From Akkermansia muciniphila (GTDB lineage: Bacteria > Verrucomicrobiota > Verrucomicrobiia > Verrucomicrobiales > Akkermansiaceae): a DNA stretch of 64,000 nt. This document shows positions 33,456 to 40,710 of this stretch, one piece after another. Each line of letters starts with the position of its first letter. Within the stretch, counting starts at the first letter, position 1. The position numbers and the translations under genes were made by a program. The stretch lies in NCBI RefSeq assembly GCF_900184965.1, contig NZ_FXYA01000003.1, positions 54,158 to 118,157 on the forward strand, in the 5' to 3' direction. Under the pieces are notes generated by a model. The model ran no database searches. It worked only from the letters and a program-made list of their open reading frames with translations, and was not told the DNA's origin.

Positions 33456-33478
33456 GCGGATTGAGCATCCGCCGTCAA
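33456..33478 (-). promoter_or_regulatory. Third copy of the locus-specific 23-bp motif
   Basis: On the minus strand: TTGACGGCG (33478-33470) then GATGCTCAATCCGC (33469-33456). It matches the two motif copies at 38429-38451 and 38569-38591 with the pattern (T/A)TGAC-n-nCn-GAT-nnn-CAATCCGC. Inside it GCGGAT and ATCCGC form a 6-bp palindrome around 5 bp. TATAGT, a good minus-strand -10, lies ten bases further along (33445-33440). The 285-bp gap between the LicD gene and the aminotransferase pseudogene is otherwise AT-rich without a gene. Confidence 0.6.
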
Positions 33479-33527: not shown

Positions 33528-35038
33528 AGAAAAGACCTGATTTTTGAAGACTCCGTTATTGACGCCCTGCTCCGCCACCCCTATCCCAGCCTTGCCCTCG
33601 TCGCCAAATTTGAAAGCTGGATGGACGGCACGGTCGTCACGCTGGATGAAGACGACAACATCAGGCAATTCATTCCCGGAAGCAAATTCTCCTACAAGAA
33701 AAAGACGGAATATTTTAAAACCGTCAATATTTACAAATTCAGCAGGGAATTCTCCCGGACCCATTACGTCCCCTTTCTTACAGCCTACAGCAAAGCCCTG
33801 GGCAATAATGAATATTACGAACAGGTGCTGCGGGTCATCGCCCTGCTGGACAAGCCGGAAATCAAGGCGCTGCGCCTCGGCGGCGAAGCATGGTATGAAA
33901 TAGACGACATCCAGGACCTGGACATCGCAGCTTCCATATTCACCCCGGACAGGGAAGAACACCTGCGCCTGATGGAATCCCGGTACGGAGGCTACTGGCG
34001 CTATCCCCGCATCAGGGATTTCTGCTACCTGGTCAACCCCTATTTCCCCAACAAACGCCTCATGTCCGAACTCAAGGCAAATTTTGAACGCCTGGTGAGG
34101 GAATACCCGTCCGGAATGAGGGTCAATAGCCTGCTGGCGGCAAAATACTTCGGCATCAGCCAGGAATACATCTGCATCGGCAACGGCGCGGCGGAACTCA
34201 TTAAGGCGCTCATGTCCCGCCTGGAGGGGAAAATGGGGGTCATCTACCCTACCTTTGAGGAATATCCCAACCGGCTGAATCCAGATATGGTGGTGCCCTT
34301 CCATACTGCTTCCCGGAATTTCACTTACACGGCGGACGACCTGATGGAATTTTTTTCCGGGAAAGACATTGGTACCCTGCTCCTCGTCAATCCGGGAAAC
34401 CCTTCCGGCTTCTTCCTGCCGAAAGGCGATGTGCTGCGCCTCTGCCAGTGGACAAAAACCCGCGGCGTACGCCTGATCGTGGATGAATCCTTTGTAGACT
34501 TCTCCTGCGGAATGCCGGACAATACGCTGCTGAAAGACGACATCCTGGAAGAATATCCCCACCTGACCGTGGTAAAAAGCATTTCCAAATCCTACGGCGT
34601 TCCGGGTCTCCGCCTGGGTGTTCTGGCCTCCGCGGACAGGGAACTGGCGGCATGGCTCAAAAAAGACGTTTCCATCTGGAACATCAATTCCATTGCGGAA
34701 TTCTACATGCAAATCTTCGGGAAATATGAGCAATCCTACGTGCGTGCAACCGTTTCATGAAAGAACGGGACCGCTTCATGCAGGAACTCTCCCGCGTGCC
34801 TTTCCTGAACGTGTTCCCTTCCCAGGCAAACTACTTCATGTGCGAGGTCAAGCCCCCCATGAAAGCTCGCACCCTGACCGGCCTTCTGCTGAAAAACCAC
34901 TCCATCCTTGTTAAGGATTGCAGCCGGAAAAAAGGATTTGAAGGCAGGGAATTCATCCGTGTCGCCGTCAGGGACGCAACCGACAATGATGCCCTGGTCC
35001 GGGCCATGCACGAGATGTGTTCCATGCATTCAAACTAG
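33528..35038 (+). pseudogene. Broken nucleotidyltransferase-aminotransferase fusion
   Basis: Two frames carry one protein. Frame 1 (to 34760) begins in mid-domain: DLIFEDSVIDALLRHPYPSL and ESWMDGTVVTLDED are the second half of a sugar-phosphate-type nucleotidyltransferase, whose first ~110 residues with the LAAGxGxR loop are absent. It continues with YEIDDIQDLDIA and, from about 33980, a class I/II aminotransferase with NPGNPSG and PLP Lys in VVKSISKSYGVPGLRLG. It stops at TGA 34758. Frame 2 (34757-35038) carries the rest: KERDRFMQELSRVPFLNVFP to IRVAVRDATDNDALV. The shift lies at TACGTGCGTGCAACC, a CGTG tandem repeat. A third CGTG would give Y-V-R-A-C-N-R-F in frame. Missing N-terminus and frameshift both argue against a normal product; a 379-aa fragment from ATG 33621 is possible. 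Confidence 0.85.
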
Positions 35039-36047: not shown

Positions 36048-37403
36048 TCAGCTGATTTCATCAACACATTCCCCACGCCTGAAGCGGGAGGCAACATCAG
36101 CCATGAACATGGAATCCTCACGGGTCAAAAGACGGTTGCCATGATGACAGCCGTGAATCAGGCGCAAAAACACGCCGAGCTCATAACGCAGCCCGTCCCC
36201 TTCAAAATTGGCAAAATACTTCCTGTTGAGCCGGGAATCCTCAAACCGCACTTCAAACATCTCCGTCTTCCACCACGGCGCCGGCACATAAATATACCCC
36301 TCCGTTCCGGTAATGCACAAGTCCCCCTCCTGCTTGGCGCCTATGGCTGCCGTGGCGGTGGCTACTGCATTGGAATAAAGAAATTCCGCGCGCGTGAACA
36401 CGTCCACGCCCGTATGAGAATTTCTGCAAGTCACAAAACGGACCCTGCGGGGATCGGTCCCCAGAAGCTTCCCGACGGCAAAAGCGGGATAGGAACCCAG
36501 CTCCGTCCACGCGCCTCCGGCCTGCATGGGATCATATTCCCTGGCGGTCTCATCCTCTATCAGCTTGGTAAACGTGGCGTCCACCGCCTTAATGGAACCA
36601 ATGACGCCGCTGCCCGCCAAACTGGTCAACTGCTGGAAAGCCGGGCAAAACGCAGTTTTAAGCGCTTCCAGTAAAACGACTCCTTTCTCCGCTGCAATCC
36701 GGAACAGCTCTTCCGCCTCCTCCCGGGCAAGGGCAAGGGGCTTCTCGCACAACACGTGTTTCCCCCGCAACAGGGCCCTCCTGGCCATTTCATAATGGAG
36801 ATGATGGGGAACGGCAATGTAAACGGCATGCACCCGGTCCAAGAACTGCTCATATTCCGTATCATATTCCAGCAGAGCGTGAGACTCGGCAAAACGGCGG
36901 ACTCTCTCCTTATTCCTTCCGAAAACGGCTGTTATTTCAATATTGCTGACATATTTGGACTCCCGGAGAAAACGGCCCGCTATGCGCCCGTGCCCTGCAA
37001 TTCCCATATAAACAATGGGATTCCTGGCGGAACGGAGGTCTGTTGAAGAAACGCCCTTGGTGCGTTCCAGGTAAACCACCTCGCAATACTCGCGAAGATA
37101 GTCAAATTTCCCCGACCAGTCGGAGCCAATCACAAAAACATCCGCCCCGTACTTCCGTATGTCATGGATCTTCTGCCCTTCCAGCTCTTCTTTAATAATG
37201 AGATCCGCCAGACCGGTCTTCCGCACGTTTTCCATGCGCTCCTCCAGGCTCTCCATGACATTCAGCTTGCCCCGGCTCTGGTCGTAGCTGTCCGTAGTTA
37301 CGCCGACGATGAGCCGGTCCCCCAGTTTCCGGGCTCTCCTCAGAAGATTCATGTGCCCCGTATGGAGCAAATCAAAGGTTCCGTAGGTAATAACCGTTTT
37401 CAT
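36048..37403 (-). CDS. TagD-like cytidylyltransferase fused to Gfo/Idh/MocA oxidoreductase
   Basis: 451 aa with two domains. Residues 1-132 are a glycerol-3-phosphate cytidylyltransferase-like domain: ITYGTFDLLHTGHMNLLRRA holds the HxGH nucleotide motif, then IGSDWSGKFDYLREYCEVVY and the RTKGVSST end motif. From about 137 a dinucleotide-binding oxidoreductase begins (YMGIAGHGRIAGRFLRES), with HVLCEKPLAL as the EKP motif and a C-terminal alpha/beta domain (GGAWTELGSYP). Each half is complete, so a bifunctional enzyme is likely: one half makes a CDP-activated alcohol, the other may oxidise or reduce its precursor. Its start overlaps the LicD gene end by 4 bp (ATGA), so it is coupled to it. Confidence 0.88.
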   Translation of the reverse strand: MKTVITYGTFDLLHTGHMNLLRRARKLGDRLIVGVTTDSYDQSRGKLNVMESLEERMENVRKTGLADLIIKEELEGQKIHDIRKYGADVFVIGSDWSGKFDYLREYCEVVYLERTKGVSSTDLRSARNPIVYMGIAGHGRIAGRFLRESKYVSNIEITAVFGRNKERVRRFAESHALLEYDTEYEQFLDRVHAVYIAVPHHLHYEMARRALLRGKHVLCEKPLALAREEAEELFRIAAEKGVVLLEALKTAFCPAFQQLTSLAGSGVIGSIKAVDATFTKLIEDETAREYDPMQAGGAWTELGSYPAFAVGKLLGTDPRRVRFVTCRNSHTGVDVFTRAEFLYSNAVATATAAIGAKQEGDLCITGTEGYIYVPAPWWKTEMFEVRFEDSRLNRKYFANFEGDGLRYELGVFLRLIHGCHHGNRLLTREDSMFMADVASRFRRGECVDEIS

Positions 37404-38359
37404 GGCCTGGGCGCATCAATCCTCTTTCCGTAAACGTCAATGAAACGGTTGACCGCCGCCTCAAAGGGAACCTTCTCCACCATGGCCTTCACGGAAGGAT
37501 GCTTGAACTGGATGCGTTCCGGATAGGACAGGTAATCGCCGTAAAAAAATTGCAGGTACTGGCGGGCATGGTTGGGCACGGAAAACATCACCCCCTCAAA
37601 TTCCGCGGAGCCAAGGGGAAAGAACGTTTCATAGGAAAGGTGCGTGTTTTTTGTAAACGTAATGGCAGGAGAAAGAAAAATCCCGGGGGCTTCTTCTTCC
37701 CCGGCGGCATCCCTTCCTTCCAGAATATCCCGGCGGATTTTCTCCTGCACCTGTTCATCGGTCAGGTTCATCCTGGCACCTACCAGCACCACGTCTTTCT
37801 TAAATCCGCTCATAAGCCTGTCCAGCTTCTCATGCCGTTCCGGTGATGAAAGGCTCTCTGAATAAAAATGATAAGGATACACATCAAGGTTGAGGGGGGT
37901 GCCCTCATACCCTATTTGCAGAAAGGCGTGCCTGTTCCAGGTGAATCCTTCCTCACGGGGAAAAAGAACGGGAAGCAGCTCCAGCAGGCGGTCAAACTCC
38001 GGCCTCATCATGCTCACATCCAGATCATCATCCCACGGAATAAAGCCCCTGTGCCTTACCGCCCCCAGCAGCGTCCCGTAATCCAGCCAGTACCGCAGCC
38101 CGTTTTCCCGGCATTTGCGCGCAAAAAGAGCCAGCAAAACCGTATTGCCGTCCTGAAGAAGCCTTAACTTTCCCGTAGCCGGAGGAACTGAGGAAATAGG
38201 GTGGTTATAAATAAGCAGATTGCGGATATCCTCCAGCTTCGCATCAAGGGACCGGTCCCTCCTTCTCCTGCATTTCTTCGCGACCCGTCCGGCGATTTTC
38301 CGCAAACGGTAGGGAAGATTGCAAAGCACCATGTATTTCATACGCCCCAGTCCTGCCAT
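37400..38359 (-). CDS. LicD-family phosphotransferase (copy 2 of 3)
   Basis: 319 aa. LicD core YWLDYGTLLGAVRHRGFIPW followed by DDDLDVSMMRPEFDRLL, then NLDVYPYHFYS, closely matching copy 1. A basic N-terminal region (RRRRDRSLDAKLEDIRN) precedes it. It is the first gene of a two-gene minus-strand unit with the cytidylyltransferase-oxidoreductase, fitting a pathway in which the CDP compound made by one is used by the other. It begins 64 bp from a -10 element (38428-38423). Confidence 0.85.
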   Translation of the reverse strand: MAGLGRMKYMVLCNLPYRLRKIAGRVAKKCRRRRDRSLDAKLEDIRNLLIYNHPISSVPPATGKLRLLQDGNTVLLALFARKCRENGLRYWLDYGTLLGAVRHRGFIPWDDDLDVSMMRPEFDRLLELLPVLFPREEGFTWNRHAFLQIGYEGTPLNLDVYPYHFYSESLSSPERHEKLDRLMSGFKKDVVLVGARMNLTDEQVQEKIRRDILEGRDAAGEEEAPGIFLSPAITFTKNTHLSYETFFPLGSAEFEGVMFSVPNHARQYLQFFYGDYLSYPERIQFKHPSVKAMVEKVPFEAAVNRFIDVYGKRIDAPRP

Positions 38360-38422: not shown

Positions 38423-38451
38423 TGGATAGCGGATTGCCTATCAGAAGTCAA
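38423..38451 (-). promoter_or_regulatory. Promoter of the LicD-cytidylyltransferase unit
   Basis: -35 TTGACT (38451-38446), 17-bp spacer, -10 TATCCA (38428-38423) on the minus strand, with the LicD start 64 bp downstream. The spacer is made of TCT plus exactly the 14-bp inverted-repeat arm. So the -35 lies inside the segment bounded by the repeats and the -10 outside. Either inversion of the segment or a protein bound at the repeat would directly affect this promoter. Confidence 0.6.
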
Positions 38452-38591
38452 CAGAAAAATCTGAATGAAAACATGATAGGAGAATTTTGATTGTGGAAAA
38501 AACGGAAAAATAAAAAGGTGTAGGATATAGTAACCATTTGACAATCTTGGAATTCAACTATTCGGAGCATGACAGCGGATAGGCAATCCGC
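38429..38591. repeat. Inverted repeat around a 135-bp AT-rich segment (possible invertible element)
   Basis: Perfect 14-bp arms: GCGGATTGCCTATC (38429-38442) and GATAGGCAATCCGC (38578-38591). Counting the inner flanks, the arms match at 19 of 23 positions (TTGACTTCT versus ATGACAGCG, then the 14-mer). The enclosed 38443-38577 is AT-rich and lies between divergent genes, the LicD unit (minus) and the GT32-TagD-LicD unit (plus). It holds TATAGT at 38526-38531 and TTGACA at 38538-38543 on the plus strand. Size and position resemble invertible promoters of gut bacteria. No recombinase gene is in the window, and both arms could instead be binding sites of one regulator. Confidence 0.6.
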
Positions 38592-38622
38592 AGAGTGAAA
38601 GGAAAATAAGTTTCTCAATCAC

Positions 38623-39408
38623 GTGATCAGAAAGCTCCATTATTGCTGGTTTGGCGGCCCTGTTCCCAACGCCGTTTTGGACAATGTGCAAAGATGGAAA
38701 GACCTCAACCCGGAGTTTGAACTGATTGAATGGAACGAAAACAATATTGATGTATCCGCTTTTGAGTTTGGCAGAAGATGTCTGGAACAAAAAAAATGGG
38801 GGTTTTTAGGAGACGTCGTACGCCTTCAGGCTTTAACGGAGCACGGAGGCTTTTATTTGGACTGCGATATAGAACTAGTTAAGCCTTTATCCCTTCTTCC
38901 TGTAAATCATCGTTTTTCATTGGGATACATTTATAATTGCGCTCTCGGCACCGCTTTTCTCTATGCCCCGCCTCATCACCCGGTCTGCATGAATCTGCTT
39001 GATTTATATGATCAAATTAAACCGGATTGCTGGCCTGTCTCCAACACCGTCTATACAGATTATTTCATTAACGAAATTCCCGGTTTTTTATTAAACGGAA
39101 AAACCTGGAGCAATGACCTGGTGACCATTTATCCCAAGGAATTTTTTGAACAGCCGGCCTTGATACGCTCCCGCGGCTTTTCCATTCACCACTGCTGCGG
39201 TTCCTGGAAACCGGACAACGGCTCTTATTTTGCTCTGAACATGAGGAGCAGCCACCAAATTAAGTGGCTTAAGAGGAAAATCAACACAGCCATTGCATTA
39301 CGCAAAAATGAATTTTATGCCTGCTATCAAGCGGCCCTCAAAGGCATATCCCTGAAAAAGGAATACGAGTGGCGCCGGGAAAAGGCGCCCAGTCCACTAT
39401 CGGAGTAA
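38623..39408 (+). CDS. GT32-like glycosyltransferase (Gly_transf_sug)
   Basis: 261 aa, starting at GTG 38623, which reads IRKLHYCWFGGPVPN, the family's usual beginning. The sugar-binding DXD motif lies in GDVVRLQALTEHGGFYLDCD, the diagnostic OCH1/capsule segment, then a C-terminal region with IHHCCGSW. Such enzymes add a hexose to capsule or lipid-linked oligosaccharides in the cytosol. Base composition is clearly more AT-rich than the surrounding genome, with many AAA/TTT codons, suggesting acquisition by transfer. It starts only 31 bp after the inverted-repeat element. Confidence 0.85.
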   Translation: MIRKLHYCWFGGPVPNAVLDNVQRWKDLNPEFELIEWNENNIDVSAFEFGRRCLEQKKWGFLGDVVRLQALTEHGGFYLDCDIELVKPLSLLPVNHRFSLGYIYNCALGTAFLYAPPHHPVCMNLLDLYDQIKPDCWPVSNTVYTDYFINEIPGFLLNGKTWSNDLVTIYPKEFFEQPALIRSRGFSIHHCCGSWKPDNGSYFALNMRSSHQIKWLKRKINTAIALRKNEFYACYQAALKGISLKKEYEWRREKAPSPLSE

Positions 39409-39454: not shown

Positions 39455-39844
39455 ATGAAAAAAGTGATTACCTACGGCACATTCGACATGTTGCATTACG
39501 GCCATATCAACTTGCTTCGGCGGGCCAGAGCCTTGGGGGATTATCTGATTGTCGCCCTCTCTTCGGATTCATTCAATGCCATCAAAAACAAGCAATCTTT
39601 TTTCCATTACGAACACCGCAGGCAAATGCTGGAAGCCATCCGGTACGTGGACCTGATCATTCCGGAAAATGATTGGGAACAGAAGCGGGAAGACATCATC
39701 AAGCACAACGTCAACATCTTTGTCATGGGAAATGACTGGGAAGGAAAATTCGATTTTCTAAAAGACATATGTGAAGTCGTCTACCTGGAACGGACTCCGG
39801 AAATTTCCACGACCCGGATAAAAAATCATCTGAAAATCCGATGA
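39455..39844 (+). CDS. tagD: Glycerol-3-phosphate cytidylyltransferase (TagD-like)
   Basis: 129 aa, full length for TagD. KKVITYGTFDMLHYGHINLL contains the HxGH motif. YEHRRQMLEAIRYVDLIIPE, NDWEQKREDIIKHNV and GNDWEGKFDFLKDICEVVYL follow the Bacillus TagD pattern almost position by position. The end motif reads RTPEISTTRI where TagD has RTxGISTT. The enzyme makes CDP-glycerol from CTP and sn-glycerol 3-phosphate. The downstream LicD gene overlaps it by 4 bp, so CDP-glycerol is the likely donor for that LicD protein (inference). The second TagD-like domain in this locus is more divergent. Confidence 0.9.
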   Translation: MKKVITYGTFDMLHYGHINLLRRARALGDYLIVALSSDSFNAIKNKQSFFHYEHRRQMLEAIRYVDLIIPENDWEQKREDIIKHNVNIFVMGNDWEGKFDFLKDICEVVYLERTPEISTTRIKNHLKIR

Positions 39845-40710
39845 AAGAAATCTCCGCACCCCAGGCGAAACGGATTCTGGTTGAGATCTTACAGGAATTT
39901 CATCAATTCTGCCACAGAGAAAATTTACGTTATTCCCTATACGCGGGAAGCCTGATCGGGGCATTGCGCCATCAGGGTTTCATTCCGTGGGATGATGACA
40001 TTGACGTACTTATGCCCCGGGAAGATTATGAACGGCTGTTTCATCTTTACCACACTTCTCCGCATCCGGCACATCTGGAATTAAATGATTCCCGCACCAG
40101 GCCGGATTACTTCTACCCGTTCATGAAACTGGAAGACACCCGCACCATCATGGTTGGAAAGGGAAAAGAGAGAGTCCGCATAGGACTGCACATTGACATT
40201 TTCCCTCTTGACGGCATGCCGAAATCCCTCATTGCCGCCAACGCCTATCTATACCTTCACAGACTGTTCCGCCATGCCACCACGCTGGCCAGCCTTCATC
40301 TGCGGGTAAAAGGCAGGAGCCTTCCGAAACAGTTGTTTCTGTTCATGTTTAAAACGCTCACCTTGGGAGCGGCGTCCGCCCGCTGGAACAAAATAAGTCA
40401 TTGGATCGCCAGACGCTATTCATGGGAAAAATCCCGTTGGGCCGGCAATGTCATCTGGGGATATGGCACAAAAGAAAAAGTTCCCGGCGCGTATTATCAA
40501 GGAAATCAAGCCGTGCCTTTTGAAGGATTCCAATTTGACGCCATGGGAAACGCCGATGGCTACCTGCGTTGCGTGTACGGAAATTACATGACTCCGCCGC
40601 CTCCGGAAAAAAGAATCCCCACGCACATAACGCCGGGCGAAATTTACATCAAAAACCTTTGCTCCGTTCCCGATTCCGGTCAGAGTTTGTCCAGGGCGGA
40701 GCGGCCATAG
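39841..40710 (+). CDS. LicD-family phosphotransferase (copy 3 of 3)
   Basis: 289 aa. LicD core RYSLYAGSLIGALRHQGFIP followed by WDDDIDVLMPREDYERLF, then the second acidic motif GLHIDIFPLDGMP and a C-terminal half with VIWGYGTKEKVP and VYGNYMTPPPPEKR. This is the fuller LicD form seen in capsule loci, unlike copies 1 and 2. It overlaps tagD by 4 bp, so translation is coupled, and the pair probably attaches phosphoglycerol or a similar CDP-derived group to a surface glycan. Its 3' end overlaps the convergent gene by 31 bp. Confidence 0.88.
   Translation: MKEISAPQAKRILVEILQEFHQFCHRENLRYSLYAGSLIGALRHQGFIPWDDDIDVLMPREDYERLFHLYHTSPHPAHLELNDSRTRPDYFYPFMKLEDTRTIMVGKGKERVRIGLHIDIFPLDGMPKSLIAANAYLYLHRLFRHATTLASLHLRVKGRSLPKQLFLFMFKTLTLGAASARWNKISHWIARRYSWEKSRWAGNVIWGYGTKEKVPGAYYQGNQAVPFEGFQFDAMGNADGYLRCVYGNYMTPPPPEKRIPTHITPGEIYIKNLCSVPDSGQSLSRAERP

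Follow-up and report, generated by a model that had tools for sequence, protein, structure and literature searches.

An AT-rich intergenic element of about 160 bases between two divergent LicD units of Akkermansia muciniphila belongs, judged by its sequence, to the known CGGATT..AATCCG group of Akkermansia invertons, and it probably carries a split promoter that controls the left LicD unit. The element lies in the 64,000-nucleotide stretch of DNA analyzed here (the window) and consists of perfect 14-bp inverted repeats at 38429–38442 and 38578–38591 (19/23 identical with their inner flanks included) around a putative invertible segment of 135 bp (38443–38577), which has 33% GC compared with 57% for the window. 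The left unit reads on the minus strand and starts with a LicD-family phosphotransferase (37400–38359; PF04991, 1.5e-31), the gene we predict to be switched, followed by a second minus-strand gene (36048–37403) that encodes a glycerol-3-phosphate-type cytidylyltransferase and a GFO/IDH/MocA oxidoreductase fused in one protein. The right unit reads on the plus strand and contains a GT32-type glycosyltransferase (Gly_transf_sug; 38623–39408), a TagD-like glycerol-3-phosphate cytidylyltransferase (39455–39844; TIGR01518 above cut-off), and a second LicD-family protein (39841–40710). The earlier note on this DNA had described the arms, the AT-rich interior, and the gene content of both divergent units, all of which were present as it had them. 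Rfam and tRNA scans of the window returned no matches.

The LicD-locus repeat alone was mildly unusual. The window contained no second perfect 14-bp inverted repeat with a loop of 30–350 bp, but at least one such repeat occurred in 5 of 60 Markov-1 resampled windows, and independent support was therefore needed. We accept the repeat as real because it belongs to a large site family. A search for the arm with one mismatch in the window’s own genome found one other place, also one arm of an inverted pair, and with the centre left variable the arms fell into the family CGGATT-NNN-AATCCG. The left recombination site is CGGATTGCCTATCAG (38430–38444, plus strand) and the right is CGGATTGCCTATCCG in minus-strand reading (38576–38590, minus strand). 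They matched 10/12 and 11/12 of the conserved family positions, respectively, in inverted orientation and 146 bp apart from start to start. Exact family sites numbered 36 in the window’s genome, where they fell in about 26 pairs, and 37 in the second genome of the species, compared with 0 for a reversed control. Sites elsewhere came as inverted pairs and not as the single conserved operator sites that the earlier note had named as evidence against a switch. Site counts across 76 Akkermansia genomes were strongly bimodal, with 22–88 sites in 14 genomes, 11 in one, 8 in one, and 0–5 in the rest. A genus-wide search with the exact LicD-locus arm and a free centre found paired copies only in A. 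muciniphila; the same search in other Akkermansia species gave single matches only, apparently inside coding sequence.

An inverton repeat of this sequence, CGGATT..AATCCG, had already been published for Akkermansia (Jiang 2019, as quoted in PMC13343947), and it was rediscovered as inverton group 138 (PMC11892184). The cps1 inverton has been shown to flip (PMC13343947). Both LicD-locus arms match the published motif in inverted orientation, and the element shares repeat motif, inverted pairing, and size with these invertons (Jiang 2019; PMC13343947; PMC11892184). It is likewise intergenic beside surface-related genes (PMC13343947, PMC11892184). It differs from other Akkermansia invertons in having TGAC at both arms, a feature of only 2/81 pairs, and T in place of A at position 10 of each arm. 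This substitution and a C-to-A change in the left inner half-site place its sites among the more divergent ones. We found no description of the LicD locus as an inverton in the Akkermansia inverton literature covered here.

The family members behave as recombination sites. We picked 86 pairs by motif quality alone and kept 81 non-redundant pairs (162 arms) for family statistics, with the pairs from G004 and G017 being samples and not complete inventories. The 3-nt centre was identical within the pair in 81/86, while random re-pairing gave an average of 3 and at most 9. The five remaining pairs were set aside by eye and for their unmatched centres and look like mispairings (e.g., a terminator stem or two neighbouring elements); since unmatched centres were part of the reason for exclusion, the claim rests on 81/86 versus about 3 expected and not on 81/81. 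Centres differed between pairs, with 39 different ones among the 81. Deviations from the consensus confined to one arm occurred only at site positions 1–4 and 12–15, and any deviation at positions 5–11 was common to both arms, as expected of the 7-bp region in which a tyrosine recombinase exchanges strands; we infer that positions 5–11 are this region. At the LicD locus both arms contain the centre GCC, and the corresponding overlap would be TTGCCTA (left 38434–38440, right 38580–38586).

Two paralogous invertons, L190 (G000:C108) and L193 (G000:C145), have interiors that are 92% identical but different centres (TCG and TTG), with the two arms of each element agreeing. Homologous interiors with different but internally matched centres suggest that the two sites change together, probably because an overlap left mismatched by strand exchange is then repaired. 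We gave up the idea that centres are selected to be unique, because 23 of 26 were distinct and random draws from 64 would give about 21.5.

Inversion was visible between genomes. Comparison of G000 with G067, which belong to the same species, showed four of 22 shared elements inverted, with inner flanks swapped and outer flanks unchanged, and three of these four also toggled their predicted promoter state. The LicD-locus element had the same (ON) orientation in both A. muciniphila genomes carrying it, which says little given that the other 18/22 shared elements, perfect ones included, also kept one orientation. By interior sequence it is closest to four complete invertons of sister species, all homologous to it there, and among these L369 is inverted relative to L367. 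The invertible phase switch proposed in the earlier note is thus supported by the motif match, by inverted sister elements, and by the family-wide promoter design described below; the LicD-locus copy itself, found in one orientation in both genomes, probably inverts as its relatives do.

The single orientation is also compatible with an inverton that is locked or dying: a family member by descent that has lost the ability to recombine through mutation of its half-sites, and now drives the left LicD unit from a fixed promoter. The left inner half-site reads CAG where the consensus has CCG, deviations at positions 12–15 are rare (9/162 arms), and a broken solo arm of another inverton persists 5 kb away. 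We consider this reading unlikely, as the overlap is perfectly matched between the LicD-locus arms, the majority of shared elements are likewise unchanged, and L177, L186, and L190, in each of which one outer half-site deviates, were nonetheless inverted between genomes.

A tyrosine recombinase of about 365 residues is the candidate enzyme for the Akkermansia invertons. The genome G074 (one contig, 74 sites) had four PF00589 matches: a XerC-like protein, a XerD-like protein, and proteins of 394 and 365 residues. Orthologues of the 365-residue protein (at least 86% identical) were present at a syntenic locus in exactly 12/76 genomes, all of which had 36–84 sites, although the correlation of recombinase and sites across Akkermansia genomes is confounded by shared ancestry. 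The candidate gene in the species (G000:C39:105628–106785) was picked by this co-occurrence and by elimination among PF00589 proteins. The protein has the expected catalytic motifs (GIRPQE, KTGGARH, LRHTYAS, MGH, and RY) and weakly matches a XerD whose structure is known. G042 (88 sites) and G013 (22 sites) contained no close orthologue and only homologues 45–47% identical to the candidate; the sites in these genomes may depend on a divergent homologue or on a different enzyme. Two invertons, L246:791–952 and L247 (792 to about 952), were directly upstream of tyrosine-recombinase genes whose products are 46–48% identical to the candidate invertase, as if the recombinase gene itself were phase-variable there.

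The family also has a common promoter architecture. Reading outward, TTGAC stopped exactly 2 nt short of the site in 61/162 arms, with a single occurrence at any other tested offset, and TA started exactly 1 nt after the site in 64/162 flanks compared with 2–15 at other offsets. With these offsets the recombination site serves as the exact 17-bp spacer between the −35 and −10 boxes. Exactly one arm had the −35 in 59/81 elements and both arms in 2, and exactly one flank had the TA in 60/81 and both in 2. This one-sidedness argues against symmetric recombinase contacts, which would be two-sided. Where both halves could be scored, 21 elements had them facing (ON) and 24 facing away (OFF). TA flanks led into an ORF reading away from the element in 50/62 cases versus 49/86 of the remaining flanks for which an ORF was clear (Fisher p = 0.003, with crude ORF calls). 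The split promoter that the earlier note had proposed from one copy, with the −35 inside the segment and the −10 outside, therefore describes the family, recurring at exactly those offsets. The two boxes of this promoter did not both lie within the repeats, either at the LicD locus or across the family.

At the LicD locus, the minus strand contains TTGACT inside the segment (38446–38451), at the family-wide −35 offset and facing the left unit, then a 17-nt spacer and TATCCA outside it (38423–38428), with the family-wide TA at +1. The right-arm counterpart of the −35 is ATGACA (38569–38574, plus strand), which would face TATCCA after inversion. These boxes and their spacing were found as the earlier note gave them, but its description of the promoter as good was generous: TATCCA matches TATAAT at only 3/6 positions and a consensus promoter scanner did not report it. 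In the sequenced orientation the element is predicted to be ON toward the left LicD unit. Since TGAC is present on both arms (TTGACT and ATGACA), inversion would weaken the left LicD promoter and not abolish it, making it a dimmer rather than a clean switch. The interior also contains a rightward TTGACA-15-TATTCG (38538–38564, found by eye), which may be an extra promoter, though it is weak and its spacing is too tight for good evidence.

The earlier note had left two outcomes side by side, a switch choosing between the LicD-cytidylyltransferase and GT32-TagD-LicD units or one dampening a unit, and the retained TGAC fits dampening of the left unit better. For a choice between units, inversion would have to take the −35 away from the left LicD unit and bring it to a promoter of the GT32 unit. 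The position of the element between divergent units favors this, as does an inverton in G075 that also has the centre GCC and lies immediately upstream of a GT32 homologue, where TTGACA-16-TATGGT faces that homologue. At the position required for a −10 on the GT32 side, the window has AGAGTG (38592–38597, plus strand), which matches TATAAT at 0/6 positions, and TA on both flanks is a feature of just 2/81 elements, leaving the choice between units unsupported and very improbable. With no −10 on the GT32 side, the switch probably tunes the left unit instead. Readings without recombination, as a paired operator for a regulator or the MITE-like ends of a small mobile element, draw on the quasi-palindromic sites and the homology of some interiors between unrelated loci, but we rejected them as largely refuted and scarcely credible, because operators do not need a pair-specific matched centre, transposon ends should have one common sequence and direct target-site duplications where we found 39 centres, each copied inverted (not direct) within its pair, and inner flanks are swapped in orthologous elements whose outer flanks agree.

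For the preferred reading, a phase-variable split promoter of the left LicD unit, we propose that a tyrosine recombinase would bind the quasi-palindromic arms and exchange strands within the TTGCCTA overlap, which must match between the two sites, and that this exchange would invert the intervening segment of roughly 147 bp. As sequenced, TTGACT faces TATCCA, which would set the left LicD-cytidylyltransferase unit to ON; after inversion the weaker combination of ATGACA and TATCCA would remain, and TTGACT would face the GT32 side with no −10. The likely outcome would be cells that differ in LicD-dependent surface-glycan decoration.

The left LicD gene in related genomes had no inverton upstream and directly followed a TPR gene where examined (G017, L079, and G073), whereas the window has the inverton, together with the GT32-TagD-LicD genes, between the TPR gene and the left LicD gene. 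Given the GCC-centre inverton beside the GT32 homologue of G075, the LicD-locus inverton probably arrived together with the GT32 gene. The solo arm about 5 kb away, CGGATTGAGCATCCG (33457–33471, plus strand), has a partial interior extending to about 33510 that is homologous to a complete inverton of G017 (L023:6294–6463) beside the neighbouring LicD gene. No partner arm for it was found in the window locus, and it looks like a broken, locked switch. Next to it, an aminotransferase-type ORF (33621–34760, plus strand) starts well within the corresponding 613-aa G017 gene (L023:4400–6241), which opens with a nucleotidyltransferase-like LAAGMGKR motif, and thus its N-terminal part seems to be missing.

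Bacteroides invertible promoters, which use Mpi/Tsr-type tyrosine recombinases, and E. coli fimS carry a complete promoter within the invertible segment. The Akkermansia family resembles them in its inverted repeats, its site-specific tyrosine recombinase (here a candidate), and its orientation-dependent transcription of surface genes (here predicted), but has only the −35 inside the segment and a −10 fixed outside. Haemophilus lic1 varies phosphocholine through slipped-strand repeats inside licA. The predicted outcome at the LicD locus is similar, a phase-variable LicD-family surface-decoration gene, with DNA inversion proposed in place of slipped-strand repeats. Having only the −35 inside the segment might explain why the published Akkermansia inverton promoter motif fell short of the promoter-enrichment cut-off in PMC11892184.

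We see about even chances that the invertons of Akkermansia amount to a bank of split-promoter switches spread across the genus, in which the site is the 17-bp spacer between one flipping −35 and one fixed −10, every element has its own 7-bp crossover identical in its two sites, and a single conserved chromosomal tyrosine recombinase (about 365 residues) acts on most or all elements. The predicted state of such a switch can be read straight from a genome as ON or OFF by whether TTGAC-n2-site faces an outer TA at +1. With a candidate recombinase named, it can be tested directly which enzyme flips Akkermansia invertons, and the LicD locus extends the predicted set of phase-variable Akkermansia genes by a LicD-type surface-decoration unit.
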